Origin: Ectobacillus funiculus
Lineage (GTDB): Bacteria; Bacillota; Bacilli; Bacillales; Bacillaceae_G
DNA: 62,214 bases
Assembly: GCF_004138295.1 (NCBI RefSeq)
Contig: NZ_SCFM01000040.1
Location: 1-62,214, forward strand
Direction: 5' to 3'
Under the pieces are notes generated by a model. The model had not been told where the DNA came from. It searched no databases and worked only from the letters and a program-made list of their open reading frames with translations. This document shows positions 14,719 to 60,378 of this stretch, piece after piece. Each line of letters starts with the position of its first letter. The stretch's first letter is position 1. The translations under genes were made by a program, and so were the position numbers.

Positions 14719-15141
14719 TTAATAACCCGAAGACATGCTTCTTCGGCAGTCCAACCAGTATAAAATATTTAATACAACTACGCAGCCTAGAGACACTATA
14801 CACCAAAAGCAAATTGCATGTATCCAAAAGAGTTCTGCATAAGTTAAATAAATAGAAAAAATGAGTCCAATACTCAGAAGAATGCCGAGCAATAACCGGT
14901 TGATTTTATCAGAGAGAATCGGAATTTTGCATAATAAACTAAATACTGACAAATAAAACAAGATTCCCAGAAAGGAAACCGGCATCGAACCGATTTCCGC
15001 ATACTGGCTGCTATTCACTGTTTGGCAGTCCCCAACCGGACAGACAAATCCCCCCAACTGTTTGGCAAAGTAAAGATAAACTGAAATCGCCCATCCAATG
15101 CCGGCAACCACTTGACCAAACAACCTTGTCATCCCGATCAT
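14719..15141 (-). CDS. Vitamin K epoxide reductase (VKOR) family protein
   Basis: A 140-aa membrane protein with about four helices. It has both cysteine pairs of the VKOR family: a loop pair in CPVGDC (about residues 34-39), next to the conserved Ser of VNSSQYAEIGSMPVSFLG, and a membrane-edge CxxC in HAICFWCIVS (about residues 110-113). Bacterial VKOR proteins reoxidise a thioredoxin-like partner with quinone and so drive disulfide formation outside the cell. The start overlaps the stop of the thioredoxin-like gene by 4 nt, so the two are made together. As the last gene of the lanthipeptide operon, its likely target is a disulfide in the lantibiotic. Confidence 0.88.
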   Translation of the reverse strand: MIGMTRLFGQVVAGIGWAISVYLYFAKQLGGFVCPVGDCQTVNSSQYAEIGSMPVSFLGILFYLSVFSLLCKIPILSDKINRLLLGILLSIGLIFSIYLTYAELFWIHAICFWCIVSLGCVVVLNILYWLDCRRSMSSGY

Positions 15142-15662
15142 CCCTTCTTCAGCTCATCCAGCATTTTTAAAAATTTCCCTTCATCGAAGCCATCCAGCCG
15201 CTGGATGACCTTTCCCTCTTCATCAATCAGATAAAAGGTTGGAAAGACTTTGATCTTTAAATCCTTCTGTATTTGTTCATCAGCGTAAACGATTGGAAAC
15301 GGAAAAGCATGCTCTGCTTTCACCTGCCTATACGCTTCCTTCTCCCCTTTTCCAACCATCACAAAGTGATATTTTTGCAGAATGTCTCTGTTTTTCTCTA
15401 AGGTAGGATAGGTACTTTGGCAAACCTCGCAATCAATTCGGGCAACCATGACCACATAACGCTTTCCCTTCCATGATTCTAAACGAAATGAATCTCCTTC
15501 TACCTCTTCGCCGCTTATTTGCGGAAATGCCTCTCCTTGCTTAATTCCCCCCAAATTTAAAAAGACTTGCGCCACTACTCCCGGGTTATTCATAGCCCAA
15601 ATTCCTACAAGGGGAACAATCGCCATCATAAAAAGTAGAATCCATCTTTTATTGCTCTTCAT
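15138..15662 (-). CDS. Membrane-anchored thioredoxin-like (TlpA/redoxin) protein
   Basis: A 174-aa protein with an N-terminal signal anchor (WILLFMMAIVPLVGIWAM, residues 7-24) and an extracytoplasmic thioredoxin fold. The active-site CxxC is in ARIDCEVCQSTYPTL (about residues 78-81) and the cis-Pro in KVFPTFYLID. It overlaps lanT by 4 nt and VKOR by 4 nt. With VKOR as reoxidation partner, an oxidase role is more likely than a reductase role. In bovicin HJ50-type lantibiotic loci a thiol-disulfide oxidoreductase likewise makes the peptide's disulfide; that parallel is from known biology, the role here is inferred. Confidence 0.85.
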   Translation of the reverse strand: MKSNKRWILLFMMAIVPLVGIWAMNNPGVVAQVFLNLGGIKQGEAFPQISGEEVEGDSFRLESWKGKRYVVMVARIDCEVCQSTYPTLEKNRDILQKYHFVMVGKGEKEAYRQVKAEHAFPFPIVYADEQIQKDLKIKVFPTFYLIDEEGKVIQRLDGFDEGKFLKMLDELKKG

Positions 15663-17860
15663 AAAGATACCCCCTCATTCTGTTGCTCGCTTATCCGGTT
15701 TCGGTAAAACTGCGCATAGTGCCCGTTGTTTTGAAGTAGTTCATGATGAGATCCCATCTCTACAATTTCCCCCTTATCCAGCACAATAATTGTATCCGCA
15801 TCAAAAATGGTGCTTAAACGATGCGCAATCACGATACGGGTGCAGCACAGCCGGGCCAAATTCTCCTGAATACGTTGCTCTGTTGTAACATCTAGTGCAC
15901 TTGTCGCTTCATCCAACAACAAAATGGCAGGCTGGTGTGTTAAGGCTCGAGCTAAGGCAATCCGTTGCTTTTGGCCGCCGGAAATATTACTTCCTGTTTC
16001 TGACAGCAATGTTCCATACTGCATTGGCATTCGCATAATATCCTCATGTATTTCTGCCAATTCAGCCGCCTTCCGGACCTGTTCGGGTTTCAATTCAGGA
16101 TTATGAAAGGAAATATTTTCATAAATGGACCGATTGAAAACTGTCGTATGCTGCATTACTACCCCCATTTGTTTTCTTAACATTGTTTTGTCCAAGTTAT
16201 TTACATTTTCGTGATCGAACCAAATAGAGCCTTCAGTCGGGGGATATAGCCCCAATAACAAGCAGGCCAACGTACTTTTTCCAGAACCGGATGACCCGAC
16301 AATGGCCACCTTCTGACCGGCCCCGATATGAAGCGATACATTGCGAATGACCTTTGGACTAAATGGACTGTATTGAAAGCTCACATTCTCTAGTCGGATT
16401 TCCCCGTTGAGTCGATACACATCGCCTTCGCTTTCCTTACTCTGTTCAACAGGAGCGCCGACAATATCCATGATTCGATTAAAGTACGTTCCCATAACAG
16501 CCATTTGTGTTCCTGTCGTTACTAACGAATACAAGGGAACTAAAAATCCGATAGCAAGTGAATAAAACCCGAACATGGTTCCGACTGTCATGTTTTGTTC
16601 AAGCACCTGCCAACTTCCCATCCACAATAGAAGCAGCGGGGCAGCATATTTAAGTACAGAGTTGATTGTTTCCATATAAGCCGTTGTGAATCCACGCTTC
16701 TCGGCCGCTTTGAGCTGCTCCTGAAACAGTTTCGACCATTGCTCATAAGCAAGCCTTTCCGCCCCCTCCGATTTCACGGCCAAAATGCCATGTATCGCTT
16801 CCGTCAAATAACTGGCCGCCGCCGTTTGGCGGAGAATCTCTTCTTGGGTCAGACGCTTGATCTGTGGATTTCCGATAAGGAGCACCGCGACCTGCAGAGC
16901 TCCCACCAACAGAATATAGCCTGTCAGTATAGGGGAATATCTCAGCATATATAGCAAAAACATAATGACCAATCCACCGTCTAACACGATGTTGACAGTT
17001 CGGGAGGAAAGAATCTCGCGAATCATCATATTGCTGTTTGCCCGTAAAATCAGGTCACCGCTCGTTCTCAGTTGAAAAAACTGGTAAGGCAATCGAAGCA
17101 GCCGATCAAAAAATCGGCTCATCAAACGCAAGTCTAATCGGTTCTGTAATTGAACAAGAATCCTTCCTCGAAGCAAGGAAATAATGGTATACACTATCAT
17201 TAAAGAAATCATGCCGATCAGCACTTGCCCCATATAAGTCGCATCCTCCGGGAGAATGACATAATCCAGCAAATACCTTGTAGCCATTGGTGTAATCAAT
17301 GCCAGCAATTGAATCCATAGGGTCCAGACTAGTACGAAGGAAACCAACCAGGACTCGTTTTTGAGAAACTGAAGGTATTGACGCCAGACTGATTCTTTTT
17401 TCCATCTTGTAAAGGAAGGTCCTGGCTGCAAGAGGAGAACCGTTCCCGAGAATTCCTGTTCGAGTTCCTTCAAGGAGAGAATGCGCCGGCCGATTGCCGG
17501 GTCGATAATAAACACCCGATCCCCCTTGATTTTCTGCAACACGACAAAATGATCACCTCGCCAATGCAAAATAGCAGGTAAAGGCAAGTGTTGCAATTGT
17601 CCGGCTGCTGCCCTATGGCCGCTGCCCGTCATACCTAGGGATTGTGCAATATCCCGGAGAGTGCGCAGGTTCGTTCCATCCCTGCCCCCGCCGCCCCGGT
17701 CTCGAAGCTCCGATAGAGGGACTTCGCTTTTATAGTAAGAAAAAATCATTGCTAAACAGCATAAGCCGCACTCTGATTGCTCCATCTGTTCAATAAACGG
17801 AACCTTGGAGCGTCTGGTGATACGAACAGGATTTCTAGAAGCGGATTTCGTATCTTCCAT
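15659..17860 (-). CDS. lanT: LanT: bifunctional C39 peptidase / ABC exporter for the lanthipeptide
   Basis: A 733-aa protein of three domains. The C39 peptidase (about residues 20-150) has the catalytic Cys in MEQSECGLCCLAMI, His in WRGDHFVVLQ and Asp in FIIDPAIG. About six helices follow (170-450). The nucleotide-binding domain has Walker A GSSGSGKST, signature SGGQKQR, Walker B ILLLDEATSALD and H-loop IAHRLST (about 490-720). It would cut the leader after the Gly-Gly site of the precursors (VAGG) and export the core peptide. Its start lies inside the 3' end of lanM (26-nt overlap), so the two are co-translated. Confidence 0.94.
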   Translation of the reverse strand: MEDTKSASRNPVRITRRSKVPFIEQMEQSECGLCCLAMIFSYYKSEVPLSELRDRGGGGRDGTNLRTLRDIAQSLGMTGSGHRAAAGQLQHLPLPAILHWRGDHFVVLQKIKGDRVFIIDPAIGRRILSLKELEQEFSGTVLLLQPGPSFTRWKKESVWRQYLQFLKNESWLVSFVLVWTLWIQLLALITPMATRYLLDYVILPEDATYMGQVLIGMISLMIVYTIISLLRGRILVQLQNRLDLRLMSRFFDRLLRLPYQFFQLRTSGDLILRANSNMMIREILSSRTVNIVLDGGLVIMFLLYMLRYSPILTGYILLVGALQVAVLLIGNPQIKRLTQEEILRQTAAASYLTEAIHGILAVKSEGAERLAYEQWSKLFQEQLKAAEKRGFTTAYMETINSVLKYAAPLLLLWMGSWQVLEQNMTVGTMFGFYSLAIGFLVPLYSLVTTGTQMAVMGTYFNRIMDIVGAPVEQSKESEGDVYRLNGEIRLENVSFQYSPFSPKVIRNVSLHIGAGQKVAIVGSSGSGKSTLACLLLGLYPPTEGSIWFDHENVNNLDKTMLRKQMGVVMQHTTVFNRSIYENISFHNPELKPEQVRKAAELAEIHEDIMRMPMQYGTLLSETGSNISGGQKQRIALARALTHQPAILLLDEATSALDVTTEQRIQENLARLCCTRIVIAHRLSTIFDADTIIVLDKGEIVEMGSHHELLQNNGHYAQFYRNRISEQQNEGVSL

Positions 17861-20800
17861 TGTTATGCTCTCCTTTTTCTTTTCGTGTAGGGCCGGCCAA
17901 CGTTAAAATAGAAGGAACAGCATCCGGGTCAGCAAGTCTTAACAGGCCGTAGCCAATTCCAGCCAATCCTGTCATCAATCCAGGTGTTTCTAATCCATGC
18001 GGAATACCGCAAATCCACCCGTTCATTTCAGCTTCCTGCAAAACGCGAGTTCCACAGGCTAAAGCTGTTCTTTTCCAGGACTCCTGTCCGGGAAGCTCTC
18101 CAGCGAGAAGCATTGTATCTATATTTCCTAAATCCCCGTGGCACAGGCAATGACTTACCCCAAAACCATTGCGCAGCGTCGTATCCAAAGCAATCTCAAT
18201 CTCCTCCCGAATCGTGTCATCAGGATACAACTGGTAGGATTTGATCCTCCCCATCGCTATCCCAGCCGCCCCATGGCACCACTTAATCGCTGCCGTGCTG
18301 GCTGAGCGTTTCAATTCATCAGGACGAACATCAGCCCAGTTCCCGGTTTCATGCTCAAACAAAGTTCTTTCAAAGGCCAATGCCTGCCATGCAGCCTCTA
18401 GAAATCTTTCATCGCCGCTCACTTTAGACAATTCCATCAGGGCCCATGAAAAACCCGCTGCTCCATGCGCGAGCCCGCCTATCGGAACACACCCTTCCTT
18501 CTCAAATGCCCAGCCAATCCCTGTTTTTAGATTCCTAGCCTTATTGAGTAAATGATCTCCCGCTTTCCGGGCTATATCCAATGCTTCTTTGCTTTTGGTT
18601 AAATGATAGATTCTTAATGCTACTACGATTACTCCCGCAGAACCGGCCAGTAAATCGTACAGCGTATCCTGCTCAATCAGCGGTTCTATTTTTTGGAGCA
18701 AGCGCAAAGCCTGATCCATAAGCTCCGGTTCCTCCCACAACAAAGCTAAATGACTTAAGACATACGAACCGGCCGCCCAGCCGTTAAATGCGGAGATGGA
18801 TGGCAAGGTGAAATCCGCTTCCCAGAAGCGATAGGCTGCCCGGATCGCCGCACGCGCCGCTTCTTCAAATACCGGATCCTCGCTTTCTTGCGATAAATAA
18901 GCAAAAAACAATGCCATTCCAAGAACACCATCGTACAGACTCGCGTCCATCGGAGTAAACATTAATTGTTCCCACTCATCGGACCCTAGCCCGATCCAGC
19001 ATATATCACTTCCGTCTTCCCCCCAAATGGCCTGATCCAGCAAAGTCTTTCCGATTCCAACCGCAGCGTCCAGAAACTGCTTCCGGTCGGCCGGGTGCCT
19101 AGGCGTCTTCGATACAGCCCGTAAAGAAGTTGGGGAATTTGAAATATCTCTTCCGGCAATCGTTGTCATGGACATACGGATAAAGTGGCTTTGCTTCTTA
19201 CAATCTTCTAAACTAAATCCTTGCAGTCTTTCAAGTACCAGCTCCAGAGCAGTTTGCTGGTAAAAATCTTGGATTCTCTTCCCTCGTCCATCCCACAGAT
19301 CCCGTGAGTTTGCCCTGCTGTGAAACATAGGAATATCTCCCCGCAGCATATCCGCCGTTTCCGACGGAACAAGCCCAGCTATAGAAGGCTGATGCTCCAC
19401 CGCCCGCCACATGAAGTCAAATAGTTGGACACGGGAGAGCCCTTCCTTCAAGTAGTTTGGATGCAGACTAGCATTAAGCATTGTTGCATAATTATACGTA
19501 TGTCGAACAACCGAACGGACAGGATCATCAGCAAAGGACAGCAAAGGGCCTTCCTCTGTCATAAGCTCCTCTCGATAATCGATAAAGAGCTTGTAGGTTT
19601 GTTGAAATCCCTCAACAAGCTCTTCAATATACAACTCCGCCCTTACCTCTTCCCCATTCAACTTCGGACGATTGTGGCCGCCTTTTAAGAAGCCCTTCGC
19701 CTGCACTAATTTCATTTGATCTGTCCGGATATGCTCATAGCGGTAAACTGGCCGGGGCAGCTCTTGGCCTGCGCGTCCTCCGATTGCGCTTACCTCCATC
19801 CCGCGAAATGTCCCTGATTTAAACAGTGACACCGGCAGCATACCGGTCCTAAGGACAGATTGATTCAGGATTCGGGCCGCATTCTGCAATGCACTTGCTT
19901 CCGTCTCTTTCATCGGAGCTATATTTTGAAACAGCGCCTCGACATCAACCAGAAATGGATGTTCCCCGCAGGCCATCACATTTTCCAAATGAAAATCTGT
20001 TGCATATAGCAAATAAAGTACAGCTACATAGCCGCCCATCCGTTGGTAAAAGCGGCTGATTTGATCACGTGTTTCGCATCCTTGAGGCTCTATCCACTCT
20101 TCCCAGCCGTAGTCGGGACGAGACAGAATCTCTAAGGTACGAAATGCTGGATGGCTTCCCCGTTCATTCATCCAGCGGAGAAATTGTTGGAAGTGAATAT
20201 CCGCAGATAGAGATCGAGGCTTATAAACAAGCTGTTCTCCTGAAGAAAAACGGAAAATCATGACACTTCGGCCACGGTTATGCTGATCCCCTGCCTTAGT
20301 ATCAATGTCAACCAATTCACGAAAATCACCATTGAACATGTGTGTAATAGCTTCATGATCCTCTAAGAAGCGCTCAACCGCCTCCAGCAACGCAAAAACC
20401 AAATCATTTGTGCCCTCCGCTAGCAGACGGGCCAACGTCGGATACTCCTGCAGAAGCTGATATATCGCCTGTTTTTCCTGCAAATTCTCGCGTACAAATG
20501 ATTCAAACCGGGCTTCTGGTGTATCCCCCTTCAATTTCTTTTGAATACGGGCTACATTCAGTTCGTAAACCAACACCCGACCAGCCATTGCATGAATATG
20601 CTGATGAACAGCTCTTACAAGAACAGAAACAAGCTCTGATATTTTAAAAGGCAGTTCAAGCCGAGACTTACTCCATTCTTGGCATTGATCCAGCACTTTC
20701 CTCTTCCCCCAGGCCATAAATGGAACCATAAACGGATAGAACGGGGATTGGGAACGATCGATTCTCTTAATCTCCTCTTCTGTTAAAGAAAGATCCACAG

Positions 20801-21080
20801 AAAAAATGCATTCCAAGATTTTAAGCCATTCTTTTTCTTTATATGGGATCGGTTCATTAGCTCCACCCAGGATTTTCTGAAACGCATGGTAGTCAAGGCC
20901 GTCTTCCTTTAAACGATATAGCAGCAATTCCGGAGTCAATCCCGTACGGCTGCACCATTGACGAACATGCCTTTCCCCATCCTGTTCCGGGATGGAGGAA
21001 TTCATTTTTCGTTCTGTCAAATACAAAGCGTGATTCCAACTAAGAAGATTGGTATCAGAAGATTTGATTACCACCTGCAT
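17835..21080 (-). CDS. lanM: LanM: class II lanthipeptide synthetase
   Basis: About 1080 aa, a normal LanM length. The dehydratase half has the kinase-like segments AGDQHNRGRSVMIFRF, QLVYKPRSLSAD and ATDFHLENVMA (about residues 260-370), which phosphorylate and eliminate Ser/Thr. The LanC-like cyclase half has GGLAHGAAGFSWAL, WCHGAAGIAMGR and CLCHGDLGNIDTM (about 880-990), giving the Cys, Cys and His zinc ligands that activate thiols for ring closure. The AAGGAG site (21083-21088) is only 2 nt before the ATG at 21080, which I report. A GTG at 21074 has better spacing and may be the true start. It follows the precursor genes after a weak terminator. Confidence 0.95.
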   Translation of the reverse strand: MQVVIKSSDTNLLSWNHALYLTERKMNSSIPEQDGERHVRQWCSRTGLTPELLLYRLKEDGLDYHAFQKILGGANEPIPYKEKEWLKILECIFSVDLSLTEEEIKRIDRSQSPFYPFMVPFMAWGKRKVLDQCQEWSKSRLELPFKISELVSVLVRAVHQHIHAMAGRVLVYELNVARIQKKLKGDTPEARFESFVRENLQEKQAIYQLLQEYPTLARLLAEGTNDLVFALLEAVERFLEDHEAITHMFNGDFRELVDIDTKAGDQHNRGRSVMIFRFSSGEQLVYKPRSLSADIHFQQFLRWMNERGSHPAFRTLEILSRPDYGWEEWIEPQGCETRDQISRFYQRMGGYVAVLYLLYATDFHLENVMACGEHPFLVDVEALFQNIAPMKETEASALQNAARILNQSVLRTGMLPVSLFKSGTFRGMEVSAIGGRAGQELPRPVYRYEHIRTDQMKLVQAKGFLKGGHNRPKLNGEEVRAELYIEELVEGFQQTYKLFIDYREELMTEEGPLLSFADDPVRSVVRHTYNYATMLNASLHPNYLKEGLSRVQLFDFMWRAVEHQPSIAGLVPSETADMLRGDIPMFHSRANSRDLWDGRGKRIQDFYQQTALELVLERLQGFSLEDCKKQSHFIRMSMTTIAGRDISNSPTSLRAVSKTPRHPADRKQFLDAAVGIGKTLLDQAIWGEDGSDICWIGLGSDEWEQLMFTPMDASLYDGVLGMALFFAYLSQESEDPVFEEAARAAIRAAYRFWEADFTLPSISAFNGWAAGSYVLSHLALLWEEPELMDQALRLLQKIEPLIEQDTLYDLLAGSAGVIVVALRIYHLTKSKEALDIARKAGDHLLNKARNLKTGIGWAFEKEGCVPIGGLAHGAAGFSWALMELSKVSGDERFLEAAWQALAFERTLFEHETGNWADVRPDELKRSASTAAIKWCHGAAGIAMGRIKSYQLYPDDTIREEIEIALDTTLRNGFGVSHCLCHGDLGNIDTMLLAGELPGQESWKRTALACGTRVLQEAEMNGWICGIPHGLETPGLMTGLAGIGYGLLRLADPDAVPSILTLAGPTRKEKGEHNNGRYEIRF

Positions 21081-21105
21081 CACTCCTTACCCTTATTATG
21101 CTTAT

Positions 21106-21137
21106 CAAAGGCAGGGGAATCTCCCTGCCTTCGTTTT
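21106..21137 (-). terminator. Attenuating terminator between the precursor genes and lanM
   Basis: AAGGCAGGG and CCCTGCCTT pair around a short loop just downstream of the broken precursor copy. On the minus strand it is followed only by TTTGAT, so readthrough into lanM is expected. This would give much more precursor than enzyme mRNA. Confidence 0.65.
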
Positions 21138-21142
21138 GTTCG

Positions 21143-21240
21143 TTAACATCCGTAGCCAAATGTATAGGAACAAATCCAACTGCAAGGCATACCATCTGCT
21201 CTGCTTTTTGGCCGCTCATAAAAGAAGTTAATTATTAAAC
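21143..21240 (-). pseudogene. Broken third lanthipeptide precursor copy
   Basis: The core part reads MPCSWICSYTFGYGC then TAA and matches the intact cores (PCGWICSYT...FGCGC) minus an internal LDCDWST-type segment. The leader matches the other precursors only in another frame (MSGQKAEQMV against MSDQELEQVA), and TAA codons lie just upstream. So leader and core are out of frame and part of the core is deleted. It is the third member of a tandem array and should not give a product. Confidence 0.7.
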
Positions 21241-21281
21241 GGTCTTCCTTTTCCAACTTTGCCGTGCTATCAATTTTTCTT

Positions 21282-21422
21282 CTAACAGGTCCATTCACAA
21301 TCTAATGTATAGGTGCAAATCCAACCACAGCCGACAGGTCTTCCTCCTGCCACTTGCTCCAATTCTTCATCACTCATAGAAGGGATCAATTCTTGAAGCT
21401 CTTCCTTTTTCCATTCCGCCAT
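21282..21422 (-). CDS. lanA2: Lanthipeptide precursor 2 (actagardine/mersacidin-like core with extra Cys)
   Basis: A 46-aa peptide too short for ordinary gene calling. The start follows AGGGAGGAATGCAAA. The leader is acidic with a double-glycine end (SMSDEELEQVAGG, residues 15-27). The 19-residue core is RPVGCGWICTYTLDCEWTC. It contains the lipid II-binding type motif CTxTxEC with Asp for Glu (CTYTLDC), and GWIC before it matches the GWVC of actagardine. There are four Cys but only three Thr and no Ser. Cys5 takes the place of the Ser that makes the first lanthionine in actagardine, so a Cys5-Cys9 disulfide is likely. Thr10-Cys15 and Thr12-Cys19 would be thioether rings. Confidence 0.9.
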   Translation of the reverse strand: MAEWKKEELQELIPSMSDEELEQVAGGRPVGCGWICTYTLDCEWTC

Positions 21423-21532
21423 TTTGCATTCCTCCCTATAGTTTCTCTAGGGCCATTCGGCTCTTTGATTATGCAGGCAGCACTGCTTCTGCATCTGTAA
21501 ACCCATCCTAAGGAAAACTTTTATATGAAGAA

Positions 21533-21552
21533 GGATGGTTTATGATCTCCCC
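21533..21552 (-). promoter_or_regulatory. Shared 20-bp motif upstream of lanA2
   Basis: GGATGGTTTATGATCTCCCC on the plus strand lies about 111 bp before the lanA2 start. The same motif with four changes lies upstream of lanA1 (22075-22094). It is conserved where the surrounding spacer is not, so it may be the response-regulator site or a promoter element for the precursor genes. Confidence 0.4.
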
Positions 21553-21778
21553 TTCTTGCATGGCCCCGCATAGGCTTTATTTAGTCTCTAAAAAACCATA
21601 AAAATTCCCCAAATCCAATATAGCCAATTCTAAATGGACAGTTTATAATATTAGATTAGGAGAATTAACTAAAGCATCTTCTTAGCAAATAGAAATATTT
21701 TCAGAAGACATTATTACATAGCCATTCTGGTTCATGGCACGTTCTTTTTTCTATTACTCTTTGCTGAGTCTTTAATTA

Positions 21779-21806
21779 CCAAAGACAGGGGAGTCCCCTG
21801 TCTTCA
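21779..21806 (-). terminator. Terminator between lanA1 and lanA2
   Basis: A perfect 10-bp stem (AAGACAGGGG with CCCCTGTCTT) 3 nt loop, directly after the lanA1 stop. The following T-run is weak (TTTGGT), similar to the hairpin after the third copy, which fits tandem duplication of a gene-plus-hairpin unit. Confidence 0.7.
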
Positions 21807-21812
21807 TTCTTG

Positions 21813-21962
21813 TTAGCACCCGCAGCCAAATGTGCTCCAATCACAGTCCAATGTATAGGAACAAATCCAACCGCAAGGCCGGCCGCCTGCTACCTGTTCC
21901 AACTCTTGATCACTCATGGAAGGGATTAGCTCTTGAAGCTCTTCTTTTTTTAATTCTGTCAT
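21813..21962 (-). CDS. lanA1: Lanthipeptide precursor 1
   Basis: A 49-aa peptide starting after TTAGGAGGAATTAAAA. The leader (SMSDQELEQVAGG, residues 15-27) is nearly the same as in lanA2. The 22-residue core starts RPCGWICSYTLDCDWSTF and ends GCGC. It has five Cys (core positions 3, 7, 13, 20, 22) and four Ser/Thr (8, 10, 16, 17). Mapping on actagardine (SGWVCTLTIEC...CAC), positions 8-13, 10-20 and 16/17-22 would form thioether rings. Cys3-Cys7 replaces the first lanthionine, so a disulfide is expected. GWI..T.DC also recalls the bovicin HJ50 group, which does carry a disulfide. Confidence 0.9.
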   Translation of the reverse strand: MTELKKEELQELIPSMSDQELEQVAGGRPCGWICSYTLDCDWSTFGCGC

Positions 21963-22280
21963 TTTTAATTCCTCCTAATATTTTTATTTGAAAGCCGACT
22001 GGCCTTCGATCAACCAGGAATTTTTTTTCCTGATCTGACAATTTGATTATAAAAGGAGTCATTTGATAAAGGGAGGATGATTTATTATCACCCCCTGCCC
22101 TAAGCTAATCATCATACCGGGACATTCTGGAAGGTTCCACTAGGCTCAACATGGCAAATACGATATATACTACTTTTCCGATTGTAATTGTCAAAATATT
22201 TAAAATTTTATTAGGCATATACACATTAGGAAATATCCTATAAGGAAATCACGAGAAACTATTTCAAGGGGGATATCTGC
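21963..22280. promoter_or_regulatory. Divergent control region of lanA1 and the histidine kinase gene
   Basis: 318 bp without a gene. It holds the lanA1 ribosome site, a small hairpin (CAGGAA with TTCCTG, near 22014-22030), the shared 20-bp motif at 22075-22094 and A+T-rich promoter-like sequence before the kinase gene (around 22190-22250). The divergent arrangement suggests the two-component pair controls precursor transcription. Confidence 0.5.
22075..22094 (-). promoter_or_regulatory. Shared 20-bp motif upstream of lanA1
   Basis: GGATGATTTATTATCACCCC on the plus strand, about 113 bp before the lanA1 start. It matches the motif upstream of lanA2 in 16 of 20 positions and sits at nearly the same distance. 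Confidence 0.4.
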
Positions 22281-23756
22281 ATGACTCTATTCTATATAGG
22301 CATGTTCACTGGGTTATGGATCATTGGAACCGTTTTATTGGTGAACAACTATAAAAATAAATATACCTGTTGGATGAGCGCCTTGTTCATTATCGCAGGA
22401 TTTGCCAGCTTTTCTGTTGTGGTGAACCAAACCGTGCTCCCATTCTTGCGGGAACAGGAGGATGGATCTTTTTGGGTGATTGAGTCCATCCGCATTATGA
22501 CGATTGTACTTTGGGGAATAGAATACCACTTTCTCCCCTACCTATTCTTAATGAGTGGGATTGTTTTTACAGATCGTTTTTCACGCAAACTGCAAAATGG
22601 GCTGGCACTTCTCCTTTTAATCCCGATTATTCTCTACATTATTTATGTTCCGCCCATCTACCCAGAGGCAAAATTCGGAGGAACTCTCTTCAAAATTTTA
22701 TCGGGCGCCTATTTTGGTGGCGGTGTTCTCTTTTATACGATCAGTTATATAAGGGAGAACAATCCTTCCAACAGGAGAAATCGATTCAGAACGAATTTTG
22801 TGGTCATCGCCATTTGCTTTGTGTACGCCTCGGATTATTATGGCCTGAATTATTTCCTAATTGGTAAAAGGAGCTTGGAAATATCAAGCAATAATTTATG
22901 GCAGCTTAATTTTCTCATTGTCATCTGGCTCATCCTGTTTTTTATTTACTTCAGTCTGAGATATGGATTTATGGGGATCAAGCTGCGCATTGAACAGCAA
23001 AAATTGGATTTTTCTATGCGATCACTCACGCAGGGGACTGCCATCCTTAACCATACATTGAAAAATGAAGTACAAAAAATCAATTACTTAAGCGAGAAAA
23101 TCAGGGATTCTATCTCCAAAGATTGTAAGGACGAAGCATTGCAAGACATTGCAAGCATACTGAAGGTTACGGATCACATGCTGAGCATGGTCACCAGAAT
23201 GAAGGAAAAAGCGGATGAAATCATCTTAAAGGAACAACCTCAGCAGCTGAGGGCGCTGTTAGACATGCAACTATCCTCCCTAGGCGCCATTTTGCAAGAA
23301 AAACATATCTTATTTCTCAAGGATTATCGGGTAGACCCGGAGCTTGTTTGCGATCCTGTACATATCCGGGAAACCTTCAGTAATATCTGCCTGAATGCGA
23401 TTGAATCAATGGAGGAAGGAAAGGGTTGTTTGGAGATTACCCTAGCTGAATGGAAGAAAGACGTGATCATTTGGGTTAAGGATAATGGAACCGGCATCTC
23501 AAAGGAAAATTCCACTAAAGTATTCGACCCTTTTTTCACTACAAAAAAAGGGCCATCCCACTATGGACTAGGTCTTAGCTATTGTTACAGCGTCATGCAA
23601 AAGCATGGAGGGAACCTGCAAATTCTAAAAAGCGAGCCGGGGGAAGGCACCCTTATGGAGCTCCGCTTTCCTCGAAAGCGGGTTCTACATTGGAGAACAG
23701 ATTCATTGAACTCCTCTGCCCAGGGGGTGACAGAATTTCACCCTCCCGTAACTTGA
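22281..23756 (+). CDS. Membrane sensor histidine kinase
   Basis: A 491-aa kinase. The N-terminal half has about seven membrane helices (residues 1-235, for example FYIGMFTGLWIIGTVLLV and FLIVIWLILFFIYFSL). The phospho-acceptor His is in AILNHTLKNEVQKI (near 255-260). ATPase motifs are N-box FSNICLNAIESM, G1 VKDNGTGIS, F-box FDPFFTTKKG and G2 HYGLGLSY (about 370-450). It probably senses a membrane or peptide signal. The partner response regulator follows after 52 nt, and both are divergent from the lanthipeptide operon, so they are the likely production or self-sensing regulators. The start has AAGGGGGAT upstream. Confidence 0.88.
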   Translation: MTLFYIGMFTGLWIIGTVLLVNNYKNKYTCWMSALFIIAGFASFSVVVNQTVLPFLREQEDGSFWVIESIRIMTIVLWGIEYHFLPYLFLMSGIVFTDRFSRKLQNGLALLLLIPIILYIIYVPPIYPEAKFGGTLFKILSGAYFGGGVLFYTISYIRENNPSNRRNRFRTNFVVIAICFVYASDYYGLNYFLIGKRSLEISSNNLWQLNFLIVIWLILFFIYFSLRYGFMGIKLRIEQQKLDFSMRSLTQGTAILNHTLKNEVQKINYLSEKIRDSISKDCKDEALQDIASILKVTDHMLSMVTRMKEKADEIILKEQPQQLRALLDMQLSSLGAILQEKHILFLKDYRVDPELVCDPVHIRETFSNICLNAIESMEEGKGCLEITLAEWKKDVIIWVKDNGTGISKENSTKVFDPFFTTKKGPSHYGLGLSYCYSVMQKHGGNLQILKSEPGEGTLMELRFPRKRVLHWRTDSLNSSAQGVTEFHPPVT

Positions 23757-23808
23757 ACTATTGTCGTACACTAATTGAAATTGATTCTACTAACAAGGGG
23801 GGACACAA

Positions 23809-24384
23809 ATGGGACACGTGATTAGAGTCATGCTGGTCGAGGACGATGAATTTTGGCGTCAACAGCTCTCTTCAGATTTAAACAAGGAAGAAGATATTCA
23901 AGTGGTCAAAGCGGCTGTTACCAAGCAGGAAGCCCTGGAAGCCTTCCAAACGATGGAAATCGATGTGATTTTAATGGATATCAATTTGACCGAAAATCAA
24001 CTGGACGGCCTCGACGCCACTAGGGATATTTCGATGAATAAAGAGCTAAACACTAAAATCATTATGCTTACTTCCCTGACAGATAAAGAGATTATTTTAA
24101 AATCCTTTCAAAACGGCGCCGTTAATTATATTACAAAGTCGAGTTTTCAGGATATTGTAAAGGCCATACGGGAAGCTTATGCCGATGTGCCTTCTATTCA
24201 TCCAGATGCCGCTCCAGTAATGCGGCACGAAATCCAATTGATGCTCCTTACGCCAAGTGAGCGAGAACTCTACGAATTACGGGAAAAAGGATATAATAAA
24301 ACACAAATGTCACAGATGCTTCATAAATCGGTGAATACTATTAAAACTCAGCTACGAAGTATCCGGAATAAGTTATTAAAATAA
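23809..24384 (+). CDS. NarL/LuxR family response regulator
   Basis: A 191-aa regulator with a receiver domain (acidic pocket VEDDEF, phospho-Asp in DVILMDINLTE near residue 57, conserved Lys in NYITKSS near 107) and a C-terminal LuxR-type HTH (LTPSERELYELREKGYNKTQ, then NTIKTQLRSIRNKLL, residues 145-191). Start ATG 23809 follows AAGGGGGGA. It is co-transcribed with the kinase and likely binds upstream of the precursor genes. No immunity transporter (lanFEG) accompanies the pair. Confidence 0.9.
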   Translation: MGHVIRVMLVEDDEFWRQQLSSDLNKEEDIQVVKAAVTKQEALEAFQTMEIDVILMDINLTENQLDGLDATRDISMNKELNTKIIMLTSLTDKEIILKSFQNGAVNYITKSSFQDIVKAIREAYADVPSIHPDAAPVMRHEIQLMLLTPSERELYELREKGYNKTQMSQMLHKSVNTIKTQLRSIRNKLLK

Positions 24385-51880: not shown

Positions 51881-54154
51881 TTATTCTGTTGCAAGTTCAA
51901 ATTCAATAGCAGCCTCTAAATCTGTTTGATAGCCTCCTAGAGTATAGATGACTTTTTTCAGGTTCCCATTAAAAGCAAATGGAACTTGATAATCTTGGCT
52001 AACAGGACTTTGCTCGTTTTGACCCACATGGAACAGTCCTCCAAAATAGCCAAGAGCTGAAATATCAGCAAGTCGCCCCTCTCCTATCTCCTGCTCTCCA
52101 GAAAATAATTTCCCTACACCTTCATTTTCGCCATCTTTAACAAATAAAAATCGTAATACTGAAGGTTCGGTTGGTAGCTCTGTTGTTGATTGAATGACAT
52201 ACTTCCTTTTATTAGAAACATTATAATGGAAAACTAATCGATTATCTTGAATATAAAAGGCATATCCCCTAGAGCTGTCCCCATGTGCAACAATTACTCC
52301 TTCCGTTGTCTTAGTAAATTGTTCTATCTCTGCCCTGATTTCAAATGATTTATTTCGTAAATCTGGCGCCAGCGAGGCGTGAAAACTCGTTTTAGATGGG
52401 TAGAACACCCGTTGGATTGGTCCTACGACTTCAGCAAGATTCCCTCTCATCGCTCGGAGTTTACCTTGTAATGAACGCCCATCTAATGGAAACACCTTAT
52501 TCTTCTCCGCTTCCTGCCACCAAAGATCAATGAGTTCTTTTAGCTTCTCCGGATACTTCTTTGCCAGATTATTCATTTCAGAGTAATCAACATCCACATG
52601 GTATAATTCCCAATCATCTTCTTCGAAGAGAGTATCTGGCTTATGTGCAGCTACTGCTTTCCAGCCCTGACGCCAAATAGCCCGGTTACCAACCATCTCA
52701 TAAACCTGAACCTCTTTACGTGTTGATTCATCAGAATGATTGAAGGAGTATGCAAGACTAATCCCATGAATCGGTTGTTGTTTAATACCTTTAAATGTTT
52801 CAGGTGCCTCAATTCCTATTAATTCAAGTATGGTCGGTACAATATCAATAACATGGTGGTATTGTCTGCGAATACCGCCTTTGTCCTTAATCTTTTCTGG
52901 ATAGTGGATAATGAGTGGGTCCTTTATGCCGCCCGCATGTACAAAGGACTTGTACCATTTTAATGGAGTATTGCCAACCTGGGCCCATCCAGCAGGATAA
53001 TGGTTGTTAGCCGTTGGACTGCCAATTTCATCAATGCGGCGCAGCTTCTCCTCCAATGATTCTTTTTCATCCCCCTGCCCCGCAATCCAAGAGTTGACCG
53101 TACCTTCATCACCACCCATTGCGCAAGCCCCATTATCAGAAAGAAGAACGATTAATGTATTGTCCAATTGTCCAATCTCTCGTAAAAACTCTACAAAACG
53201 ACCAATATGATAATCAGTATGCTCTAGAAAACCCGCGAAGGCCTCCTGCATTCTGGCAAACAAGCGCTGTTCATCTTTACTTAAAGCATCCCAGGCCTTT
53301 ACGCCAGGGTTTCTTGGCGGTAATTTTGCATCTGCGGGAATAATACCGAGTTCTAATTGACGTGCAAACCATTCTTCTCTGATGACGTCCCAGCCTTTGT
53401 CGTATTTTCCTTTGTATCTATCAATATACTCTTTTGGAGCATGGTGCGGTGCATGTGTTGCCCCATAAGCAAGATAGGTAAAAAACGGCTTATCTGGAGC
53501 TGCCGATTTCTGATCACGAACGTACTCAATTGCTTTATCAGTTAAATCCTCGGTTAAGTGGTACCCATCCTCTGCCCGCTTCGGCTGTTTAATCCGGCGA
53601 TTATCTTCAACTAGATCAGGCTGCCATTGACTCGTTGCACCCGCTAAAAATCCATAGAAATGCTCAAAACCGCGACCAAGCGGCCAGTTATCAAAAGGAC
53701 CTATATTTGTTTGTTCCTTGCCAGGTGCAAGATGCCACTTTCCAACAGCATAGGTGCTATAGCCTTTTTCCACCAGAATTTCACTAAGTAATGTCGTATC
53801 CTTTCCTATTTTCCCCCGAGCATTTGGGAATCCGCTATCGTACTCTGATACGAAAGACACTCCAGTCGCATGCGGATTTCGACCTGTTAGCAGCGCAGCC
53901 CTAGTAGGAGAACAAATAGCGGTTGTATGAAAGTTATTATACCTAATACCGTTTTTCGCTAATTTATCTATGTTTGGAGTTGAAATATCTGATCCGTAGC
54001 ACCCTAAGTGGGAAAAGCCTAAATCATCTAATAAAATTACTACAACATTAGGCGATCCGTGCGGCGGTCTCGTCGGCTGAGGCCACCACAGAGTGGATTC
54101 CTGTACGGTTTTTCCTATTACGCCTTGGAATGCTTCTGTATACTCTTTAGCCAT
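51881..54154 (-). CDS. Arylsulfatase (type I, formylglycine-dependent)
   Basis: A 757-aa sulfatase that frees sulfate from sulfate esters. The active-site motif is CSPTRAALLTGRN (Cys near 81), where Cys becomes formylglycine. Metal ligands are in VILLDDLGFSHLGCYG, plus LLSDNGACAMGG and a GKWHLAPG segment. It has no signal peptide, so it acts in the cytoplasm on imported esters. It is long compared with 500-600-aa family members, having a C-terminal beta-rich domain as in the PAS-type AtsA group. Last gene of an operon with its own importer and activating enzyme. Confidence 0.94.
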   Translation of the reverse strand: MAKEYTEAFQGVIGKTVQESTLWWPQPTRPPHGSPNVVVILLDDLGFSHLGCYGSDISTPNIDKLAKNGIRYNNFHTTAICSPTRAALLTGRNPHATGVSFVSEYDSGFPNARGKIGKDTTLLSEILVEKGYSTYAVGKWHLAPGKEQTNIGPFDNWPLGRGFEHFYGFLAGATSQWQPDLVEDNRRIKQPKRAEDGYHLTEDLTDKAIEYVRDQKSAAPDKPFFTYLAYGATHAPHHAPKEYIDRYKGKYDKGWDVIREEWFARQLELGIIPADAKLPPRNPGVKAWDALSKDEQRLFARMQEAFAGFLEHTDYHIGRFVEFLREIGQLDNTLIVLLSDNGACAMGGDEGTVNSWIAGQGDEKESLEEKLRRIDEIGSPTANNHYPAGWAQVGNTPLKWYKSFVHAGGIKDPLIIHYPEKIKDKGGIRRQYHHVIDIVPTILELIGIEAPETFKGIKQQPIHGISLAYSFNHSDESTRKEVQVYEMVGNRAIWRQGWKAVAAHKPDTLFEEDDWELYHVDVDYSEMNNLAKKYPEKLKELIDLWWQEAEKNKVFPLDGRSLQGKLRAMRGNLAEVVGPIQRVFYPSKTSFHASLAPDLRNKSFEIRAEIEQFTKTTEGVIVAHGDSSRGYAFYIQDNRLVFHYNVSNKRKYVIQSTTELPTEPSVLRFLFVKDGENEGVGKLFSGEQEIGEGRLADISALGYFGGLFHVGQNEQSPVSQDYQVPFAFNGNLKKVIYTLGGYQTDLEAAIEFELATE

Positions 54155-56833: not shown

Positions 56834-57808
56834 TTAATTTATTTCTCTGTCTGTTATGTCTGCTGCACAACGAAAGCCCATATGCCCTGTTGAGCTATCT
56901 GGCGTGTTGGATGTTCTTGCTGCAACACGGTACCGATTACAGTAGGAATCATGGCACATGTAGGATCCTCCTCGGATTACTCTGCTTTCTCCTTGTAATG
57001 GGCCTTTTGGATTGTCTTTTGCATCATACAAATGGTAATCGGGACTAAACCAATCAGCACACCATTCCCATACGTTTCCCGACACATTGTATAACCCATA
57101 GCCGTTTGGAGGGAAGGATTTAGCGGGTGCTGTCCCCTTATACCCATCTGCTGCAGTATTAACATTTGGGAATTCTCCCTGCCAGATATTGCAGTAGTGC
57201 TCACCATTAGGAAGCAGTTGATCTCCCCAAGGATAACATTTTTGAAAAAGACCTCCTCTAGCTGCATATTCCCATTCTGCCTCTGTCGGTAATCGCTTTC
57301 CCGCCCAAGAACAGTATGCATTCGCATCGTTCCACGATACATGCACAACCGGATGATCTAGACGTGACAGAATGTTAGAATCCGGTCCTTCTGGATGCTT
57401 CCAGCAGGACCCTCTAACCATCCACCACCAAGGAGTGCCTTGCACAACACTGCTAACTTGGTTGGCTGTTTGTTCAGAGACAAATTGATAAAATACAAAG
57501 GACCAGCCATATTGTTCAGCTTCCGTTATGTATCCAGTATCGGTCACAAACTCTAGAAACTGCGAATTTGTTACCGTACACGCATCAATAAGGAATGAAT
57601 CAACTGTCACACTTCGAATTGGTCCTTCCCCGTCAAGAGGAAAGCCTTCTCTGCTATCGGTTCCCATTAAAAATGTTCCGCCCGGAATTAGAATCATTTC
57701 CTCTACTAAAGCGCTACTTTTTCTAGGTATTGACTGCAGCAATTGTATATTTTTCTTTCTTGTTTCCGTTTTTATAGAACAACATGATGATGGTTGTATT
57801 TCTTTCAT
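56834..57808 (-). CDS. Formylglycine-generating enzyme (sulfatase-modifying)
   Basis: A 324-aa FGE-sulfatase domain protein that oxidises the sulfatase Cys to formylglycine. Marks: ILIPGGTFLMGTDSREGFP, the conserved HPVVHVSWNDANAYCSWAGK, RLPTEAEWEYAARGG, and the copper-binding redox Cys pair in GGSYMCHDSYCNRYRVAAR (near 285-290). The N-terminus holds CC (SSCCSIK), of no known role. A dedicated enzyme in the same operon as its sulfatase target. Start overlaps the marR stop by 4 nt. Confidence 0.94.
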   Translation of the reverse strand: MKEIQPSSCCSIKTETRKKNIQLLQSIPRKSSALVEEMILIPGGTFLMGTDSREGFPLDGEGPIRSVTVDSFLIDACTVTNSQFLEFVTDTGYITEAEQYGWSFVFYQFVSEQTANQVSSVVQGTPWWWMVRGSCWKHPEGPDSNILSRLDHPVVHVSWNDANAYCSWAGKRLPTEAEWEYAARGGLFQKCYPWGDQLLPNGEHYCNIWQGEFPNVNTAADGYKGTAPAKSFPPNGYGLYNVSGNVWEWCADWFSPDYHLYDAKDNPKGPLQGESRVIRGGSYMCHDSYCNRYRVAARTSNTPDSSTGHMGFRCAADITDREIN

Positions 57809-59040: not shown

Positions 59041-60378
59041 CTACAAGATTGCAAATTGCCAGTTAGCATTGTGGCATAGCAGTTCTAAGCTGCTTAAGTT
59101 CACTTGTTTATACGATTTACCTGGAACTGTAACATAATCACCTTGTATGTTTTTTACATAACAACATTGTCCACTGAAGCCACTAATCCAGCCGACTTGC
59201 CCAAATACACGTACTTTATCATTCAACTGCCATGTCCCCACTGCTTTTGTGTTTTTTTCATTTCTTTTAGCTAATGTATTTTTTTCTTTTCTCCCCTTTC
59301 GTGCAGTTGCTTCATGTAAAGAACGTTTTTTCTTTCTAAATTGCTTAATAAACAGCACGTTTGCTGGATTTTCTTTAATAGCAGTTATACCTGTGGACGC
59401 AATTGCATCATTAGAATGTGTTTTTTCAAGCTCAAGTATTTTTCGTCTTGGTGTTGTCATACTTCCATATGTAATGTGAGCTTCAGGATACTTTTCAAAC
59501 ACTCTTCTACGAAAAATATTCATGAATGGGCCTTCTTTATAACGTTTGGTTTTTTTTTTCTCTATCATCCACTTCCAAAAAATGTTGTCTTCTTGATGAT
59601 TTTCATACGTATGGCAACTCGTGCAAACTGTAACGAGGTTGCATGCGGCATTGCTTCCCCCATGACTTTTATAAATAATATGATGGGTTTGTAAAATCCC
59701 ACCTTTTTTCTTGCAGACCTGACAGGTGTAATAATCTCTTGCAAGAACAAAGTACCTTACATCGTGATACCCAAAGGTGTCCCCTTCTTGATACTCCCTA
59801 CCTTGGATATTTGGACTCCTCATCTTCTGAACATCAAATTTTCCTACTTCTATATGAATATTGCATGTTGGGAGTAAGGAATACAATGTATCGATCCAAT
59901 AAAAGGTATTCTGTATTCTGCTTTGAATAGAAGGTGGAAGCCAACCATTTGGCCGCTTAGAAGTAAAGGATACAGATACCTTGTGATACATTCCTCTCTT
60001 TGTTCTTTTTCCTTCTACATAAACTCGTTTCGTTTTATGCTTAAATTTTGACCTTCTATATCGAGTCTTACGATTTCTTCTGCCTCGTCTGTAGGTTTTC
60101 TTTGTTTCTAGATTACCTTTTACATCCTGACGTAATTCTAATTCTGCCTTACCAAATACTTTTTCATTAGATGTAATAGCAATTCCAACACATTTTGCAC
60201 CTAAAGCTATTCCTAACCTTGTTTCTTGCGTTGCTTCTCCTGTTGCATACAGAAGCTGAATCGTAAACGGATTATGACGAACAATCGTTGCTTTCTGTTC
60301 TTTCAATAGAATTCTCGCTTTACGCGGAGAACAGGGCATCAGCATCTCTCCACGTAAATTCATGACGAATACTCGCAA
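59041..60378 (-). CDS. iscB: IscB RNA-guided nuclease with altered RuvC-I site
   Basis: 445 aa, the ancestor-type relative of Cas9. Order: PLMP-like domain (MLMPCSPRKARILLKEQKA, residues 11-29), RuvC-I (LGIALGAKCVGIAITS, near 55-70), Arg-rich bridge helix (TYRRGRRNRKTRYRRSKFKH, near 93-112), RuvC-II (IHIEVGKFDVQKMRSP, near 175), HNH (LQTHHIIYKSHGGSNAACNL, then CTSCH, near 228-255), RuvC-III (HSNDAIASTGI, near 320) and a C-terminal target-recognition domain. In IscB the RuvC-I motif is LGIDxG; here the codon is GCT (Ala), so RuvC should be inactive while HNH looks intact. Start ATG 60378 follows GGAGGAACGAAACTTGCGAGT loosely. Confidence 0.92.
   Translation of the reverse strand: MRVFVMNLRGEMLMPCSPRKARILLKEQKATIVRHNPFTIQLLYATGEATQETRLGIALGAKCVGIAITSNEKVFGKAELELRQDVKGNLETKKTYRRGRRNRKTRYRRSKFKHKTKRVYVEGKRTKRGMYHKVSVSFTSKRPNGWLPPSIQSRIQNTFYWIDTLYSLLPTCNIHIEVGKFDVQKMRSPNIQGREYQEGDTFGYHDVRYFVLARDYYTCQVCKKKGGILQTHHIIYKSHGGSNAACNLVTVCTSCHTYENHQEDNIFWKWMIEKKKTKRYKEGPFMNIFRRRVFEKYPEAHITYGSMTTPRRKILELEKTHSNDAIASTGITAIKENPANVLFIKQFRKKKRSLHEATARKGRKEKNTLAKRNEKNTKAVGTWQLNDKVRVFGQVGWISGFSGQCCYVKNIQGDYVTVPGKSYKQVNLSSLELLCHNANWQFAIL

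Follow-up and report, generated by a model that had tools for sequence, protein, structure and literature searches.

A class II lanthipeptide operon of Ectobacillus funiculus that ends in a thioredoxin-VKOR pair, a candidate module for oxidising an N-terminal cysteine pair

Why would an operon for a lanthipeptide end in genes for a thioredoxin-like protein and a member of the vitamin K epoxide reductase (VKOR) family? The question is raised by a 62,214-nucleotide stretch of Ectobacillus funiculus contig NZ_SCFM01000040.1 (the window, by which we mean this whole stretch), whose minus strand carries from 21962 to 14719, in the order of transcription, lanA1, lanA2, a lanA remnant, lanM, lanT, a ResA/TlpA-like thioredoxin gene and a VKOR gene. 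Gene assignments are Pfam and NCBIfam profile matches on the window proteins. They agree with a preliminary description of the locus, which placed the thioredoxin-like and VKOR genes at the operon end with overlaps of 4 nt, as do the coordinates of lanT (15659-17860), the TlpA-like gene (15138-15662) and the VKOR gene (14719-15141). We propose, with a probability of about 0.78, that the operon is of the class II lanthipeptide type and includes an oxidative-folding module of its own, in which TlpA and VKOR oxidise an N-terminal Cys pair of the peptide.

The two intact precursors are the 49-aa product of lanA1 (21813-21962), with the leader MTELKKEELQELIPSMSDQELEQVAGG and the core RPCGWICSYTLDCDWSTFGCGC (core nt 21881-21816), and the 46-aa product of lanA2 (21282-21422), with the core RPVGCGWICTYTLDCEWTC (core nt 21341-21285); in both, a leader ending in GG precedes the core. 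As the preliminary description had it, translation gives a ratio of Cys to Ser plus Thr of 5:4 in lanA1 and 4:3 in lanA2. In the usual LanM reaction the dehydrated residue lies N-terminal to the Cys with which it is joined. The first two Cys of each core (core Cys3 and Cys7 in lanA1, core Cys5 and Cys9 in lanA2) lack a canonical thioether partner, because both precede every Ser and Thr. The rest of the biosynthetic machinery is that of a class II lanthipeptide cluster: besides the double-Gly leaders there is a LanM (17835-21083; DUF4135 and LANC_like domains, TIGR03897 at 986.8 bits against a cut-off of 304) with its dehydratase domain and two CHG motifs of the cyclase domain, and a LanT with a C39 peptidase and an ATP-binding cassette (ABC) exporter (PF03412, PF00664, PF00005). 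The lanthionine product of the operon is predicted from these gene families.

The TlpA-like protein, of the AhpC-TSA/Redoxin type, has a putative hydrophobic N-terminal helix, a CEVC active site (C78, C81), a thioredoxin fold and a probable cis-Pro at the invariant P141. Its predicted structure (mean predicted local distance difference test score, pLDDT, 83.4) best matches ResA 2f9s, with a template-modelling (TM) score of 0.83 normalised to the target. Streptococcus gordonii SdbA (5um7), which we take to be a Gram-positive oxidoreductase that forms disulfides, is also among the structural matches, so the fold is compatible with a non-reducing role. The VKOR protein (PF07884 at 71.8 bits, cut-off 27.5) has the loop pair C34/C39, a second pair C111/C114 in a CxxC motif and a helix-bundle fold in its model (mean pLDDT 83.0; query TM 0.82 to 4nv5_A, a Synechococcus VKOR), and its best match in the PDB, by sequence and by fold alike, is a VKOR-thioredoxin protein. 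VKOR homologues act as oxidising, not reducing, partners of thioredoxins.

A degenerate core pattern, with most of its variable sites open to any residue, was scanned over the genome_contigs collection and matched 12 stretches. Translation identified three real lanA loci among them, in Bacillus sp. 03113, Neobacillus cucumis and Paenibacillus assamensis; the other nine matches, which had no leader frame, were dropped as chance occurrences of the motif. In the fetched stretches of all three loci, precursors are followed by lanM-lanT-TlpA-VKOR, and every one of these genomes has a single VKOR, placed in the operon as it is in the window. LanM and VKOR searches added two Priestia megaterium plasmids that have the precursor, TlpA and VKOR in common, a Pseudalkalibacillus hwajinpoensis plasmid whose circular record opens inside the cassette, and the genomes G846 and G714. 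With the Priestia pair counted once and the window included, the order lanA-lanM-lanT-TlpA-VKOR recurs in eight distinct loci with 10 distinct cores, and all eight carry the Cys pair. All 10 cassette cores have two Cys N-terminal to their [ST]x[ST]xxC motif, compared with 4 of 26 control cores. The residues inside the pair vary while both Cys stay constant (CGWIC, CGWVC, CGYFC, CGWTC, CGWSC and CQDC, the last being the altered spacing of a single locus), and Cys exceeds Ser plus Thr in nine of the 10 cores, by exactly two in those of Bacillus sp. 03113, N. cucumis A2 and P. assamensis. The catalytic Cys of both enzymes are conserved as well: alignments of the eight cassettes have VKOR Cys34, Cys39, Cys111 and Cys114 and TlpA Cys78 and Cys81 (window numbering) invariant, and the TlpA-like gene lies directly upstream of VKOR in every one. 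For the Priestia genes, the NCBI pipeline gives the labels type A2 lanthipeptide, TlpA and VKOR family, with no remark on a link. The N. cucumis locus (L022 11755-12253, minus strand) has three tandem lanA genes with near-identical leaders and varied cores, which suggests a recent precursor duplication within the cassette.

The controls were 37 lanM stretches (L024, L028-L040, L048-L050, L053-L072). A readable precursor was found in 25 of them, giving the 26 distinct core rows, with one or two rows entered for loci that had several precursors of one type; the remaining 12 (L035, L037, L054, L057, L059, L061, L063-L066, L071, L072) had none. Stretches, window and cassettes included, came from 16/30, 18/53 and 6/10 of the LanM-bearing genomes in three samples, among which G337 and G848 are apparently one genome. 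A search with the cassette profiles found no TlpA or VKOR relatives at E 1e-3 in the 37 control stretches, of which L054 ends 145 bases past lanM, so that its downstream genes lie outside, although its genome, G658, has no VKOR. A Cys pair is not in itself a sufficient sign of the module: L049/L069, L029 and L036 have one, with no TlpA/VKOR match in the fetched stretch. In L049 (5548-5775) and L069 (6768-7004) the precursor is of the mersacidin/lichenicidin type, with the core ADCANVCTWTKDCSICPSWSCWSWSC and a CxxxC pair before TxTxDC, and the mersacidin-like core of L034 was also scored as having two Cys before the motif.

VKOR itself is rare in the genomes searched. Among the LanM-bearing genomes fetched, only cassette genomes have a VKOR over the cut-off, the matches in G075 and G119 falling below it. 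In the order sample VKOR was over the cut-off in 13 of 397 genomes, comprising the window, the cassette genome G365, G354 with a lasso-type locus, and 10 with longer frames (218-281 aa), four of which (G402, G200, G121, G163) were read and all lack the loop Cys pair. The count was 2/394 genomes (G021 and G714) in the family of P. assamensis (G021) and 3/193 (G020, G019 and G846) in that of N. cucumis (G020). All five of these VKORs sit in this cassette, with a Cys-pair core; G021, G020 and G019 were already known from the core pattern, and G714 and G846 were new from the VKOR search. Likewise, tblastn with the window VKOR matched three of 72,556 plasmids, all with this cassette. The operon's VKOR is the only one of the window genome, which also encodes two DsbB homologues at other sites, and on these grounds we reject a general housekeeping oxidase role for VKOR in this genome. 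The lasso-type locus of G354 (L025 8437-15543) encodes a B2 protein, an asparagine-synthase-like cyclase, a MauE-family protein and an ABC transporter, and in it a DsbA-like protein and the VKOR adjoin a 63-aa frame with four Cys; judged by its genes, it appears to represent another type of peptide locus in which VKOR occurs with a redox partner.

A relative from the window's own family, G017, provides a natural comparison. Its LanM is 52% identical to that of the window, and its precursor, with the core ARPGPGWIKTVTLDCPAATFWCCG, agrees in leader type and in the TxTxDC part. The core starts ARPGPGWIKTVTLDC, however, and Pro and Lys take the places of the two Cys; the operon ends after lanT with no TlpA, and there is no VKOR genome-wide. 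In a LanM tree of 28 rows, the eight cassette LanMs and that of G017 form one clade of nine (support 99/98), inside which G017, sister to the window's group, clusters with N. cucumis, Bacillus sp. 03113 and the window (support 97/93). Mapping the cassette on the tree takes two changes, a single origin and a single loss. Because G017, lacking both pair and VKOR, is nested in the cassette clade, the Cys pair, TlpA and VKOR were lost jointly in it. The preliminary description had attributed an N-terminal disulfide to a dedicated oxidation pair: this is supported by the recurrence in eight loci, the joint loss in G017 and the rarity of VKOR elsewhere in the genomes searched, with the disulfide itself a prediction from the DNA.

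The scheme that we propose would run as follows. Precursors would be made with a GG leader, and LanM, to judge from its family, would dehydrate Ser and Thr and close thioethers in two parts of the core, TxTxDC and the C-terminus, while the N-terminal Cys pair would keep its thiols in the reducing environment of the cytoplasm. Next, LanT would remove the leader and export the peptide. Outside the cell the TlpA-like protein would accept electrons from the Cys pair, leaving a short disulfide ring (CxxxC, or CxxC in one relative), and would pass them to VKOR and on to a membrane quinone. Gene content and order, the conserved catalytic Cys, the recurrence and the joint loss are observed; we infer from them that a disulfide is formed, which way the electrons flow, that quinone takes them up, and that oxidation comes after export and outside the cell. 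We are evenly divided on a broader idea, namely that an enzyme-made N-terminal disulfide is an obligatory post-export step in some class II lanthipeptides, one that couples the respiratory quinone pool to maturation, and that loci for peptide natural products are where VKOR has mainly been recruited in these bacteria, to lanthipeptide loci here and to a lasso-type one in G354.

Several points weigh against oxidation of the pair by TlpA and VKOR, and some of them favour other explanations. The TlpA-like protein is nearest to ResA, a reductase, and by the tree the association of pair and cassette reflects one origin and one joint loss, not many independent events. A disulfide might also form spontaneously after export, with TlpA-VKOR only speeding it up, repairing mispaired forms or protecting secreted thiols. 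In bovicin HJ50, as PMC4018250 reports, the disulfide forms spontaneously and the clustered dsbA gene is not responsible, so that the precedent of an enzyme-made bond which the preliminary description saw there finds no support. The control cores point in the same direction, since a spare Cys pair with no TlpA/VKOR match in the fetched stretch is seen in the Mesobacillus-type core ADCANVCTWTKDC of L049 and L069 and in the haloduracin-alpha-like cores of L029 and L036. We nevertheless consider spontaneous formation with a merely auxiliary enzyme pair unlikely: both redox genes are kept in 8/8 cassettes despite LanM identities as low as 36-45%, and the joint absence of TlpA, VKOR and Cys pair in G017 suggests that the enzymes are relevant to the pair.

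Another reading keeps the enzymes and changes their substrate, which would be not the peptide but some other protein that the operon exports or places in the membrane (LanT, the sensor kinase or an immunity protein). ResA-like proteins do act on other proteins, but the divergent kinase is present in the window, L021 and L022, other neighbours being found at L023, L027, L045, L051 and L052; G017 keeps lanM and lanT yet lacks TlpA and VKOR, and what changes along with TlpA-VKOR is the Cys content of the core, all of which makes such a substrate very improbable. Finally, one or both N-terminal Cys might enter non-canonical thioethers with a downstream dehydrated residue, the redox pair keeping thiols reduced or being unrelated. 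Mersacidin has a thioether of this kind, from a Cys N-terminal to its Thr partner (the Cys1-Thr2 ring); the G714 core has equal counts, four Cys and four Ser plus Thr; and both plasmid-type cores have Thr or Ser inside the pair, so that only their first Cys precedes every Ser and Thr. The excess of Cys over Ser plus Thr in the other nine distinct cores means, however, that at least one Cys lies outside thioethers there, and the excess of exactly two in three cores, together with the oxidising role of VKOR towards thioredoxins, leaves this reading with hardly any probability. Oxidation of the Cys pair by TlpA and VKOR is the explanation that we prefer.

How does the locus compare with known systems? 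The actagardine/mersacidin group has, like the window cores, GW, a hydrophobic residue and C followed by TxTx(E/D)C, and its first ring is a thioether. No Ser or Thr precedes core Cys7 (lanA1) or Cys9 (lanA2) from which such a first ring could be closed, and the window precursors differ from the group in falling, by Pfam, in L_biotic_typeA (PF04604, cut-off 21.7), with 31.8 bits for lanA1 and 35.2 for lanA2. The nearest NCBIfam family, NF040664 of the lacticin 481 group, scores 20 and 22 bits, below its cut-off of 46, and the filing under a mersacidin/actagardine type in the preliminary description finds no support in either. Its suggestion that Cys replaces the ring-forming Ser of actagardine is also weak: we take the actagardine core to start SSGWVCTLTIEC, with a ring from Ser1 to Cys6, and the window Cys aligns without gaps with Ser2, one position off, while G017 has Pro there. 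Haloduracin alpha has a disulfide from Cys1 to Cys8 and shares with the window an N-terminal Cys pair before a CTLTxEC motif, but its pair spans six residues, and TlpA and VKOR are unmatched in L029 and L036, the loci with such cores. Sublancin and other glycocins come from loci for ribosomally synthesised and post-translationally modified peptides that have their own disulfide machinery, with clustered thiol oxidoreductases; there, however, the enzymes are of the BdbA/BdbB type and act alongside S-glycosylation with no LanM, whereas the window has TlpA and VKOR with LanM. The VKOR-thioredoxin fusion of Synechococcus has a general role. It too pairs a VKOR bundle with a thioredoxin domain (PDB 3kp9, 4nv2, 4nv5, 4nv6), but in a single protein, whereas the window has two genes inside a peptide cluster. 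Among lantibiotics, the bovicin HJ50-like subgroup is the one best known for a disulfide, and the core of bovicin HJ50 (GWIK-T-x-T-x-DC) resembles that of the window (GWIC-[ST]-x-T-x-DC). The two systems share class II enzymes (LanM and LanT) and a disulfide beside thioethers, which is predicted in the window and reported in bovicin. The bovicin bond, however, lies in the C-terminal ring C, behind the thioethers, according to PMC4018250, whereas the spare Cys of the window are N-terminal and come with TlpA and VKOR.

The literature searched, outside which subscription papers and preprints mostly lie, yielded no paper that connects VKOR with lantibiotics or lanthipeptides, and this agrees with the remark in the preliminary description that no such lantibiotic locus was known. 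The one paper there that mentions both vitamin K epoxide reductase and bacteriocin is, by title, unrelated; lantibiotic terms were looked for and did not occur in PMC12453122 and PMC4555120, nor VKOR and disulfide terms in PMC12715929. All the parts belong to known families, and together they make up a variant form of class II lanthipeptide biosynthesis. What the locus adds is that, across a clade of lanthipeptide operons, a thioredoxin and VKOR travel, and vanish, with an extra Cys pair, and an enzyme-made lanthipeptide disulfide thereby becomes directly testable. If the proposal is true, peptide engineering would gain a maturation module that can be transplanted, and disulfide-bearing lanthipeptides could be spotted in genomes.

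The remaining features of the region are minor. A third lanA core remnant (21143-21188, minus strand), identical to lanA1 at 29/30 nt over its first part, has an internal deletion and no recognisable leader. Divergent from the operon, on the plus strand, are a membrane histidine kinase (22281-23756) and a response regulator (23809-24384; PF00072), in positions common to the loci of Bacillus sp. 03113 (L021) and N. cucumis (L022). Upstream of lanA1 lies a 25-nt inverted repeat, GGGGGTGATAATAAATCATCCTCCC (22071-22095, minus strand), which recurs identically upstream of lanA in L021 (from 3562, plus strand) and L022 (from 12379, minus strand) within diverged flanks, and in a diverged form upstream of lanA2. 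The repeat, a candidate for either an operator bound by the response regulator or a hairpin in the mRNA leader, has fold z values of -1.39 and -2.81, and the lanA2 form one of 0.16. Next to the operon (window 14719-24384) no immunity transporter of the LanFEG type was seen, unlike in the cassettes of L023, L027, L045 and L052, which have genes for an ABC transporter ATPase and/or permease upstream. Elsewhere in the window, on the minus strand, a sulfatase lies near a formylglycine-generating-enzyme-like protein (51881-54154 and 56834-57808), and a 445-aa protein (59041-60378) combines RRXRR and HNH domains, a make-up that we take to be that of IscB-like nucleases.

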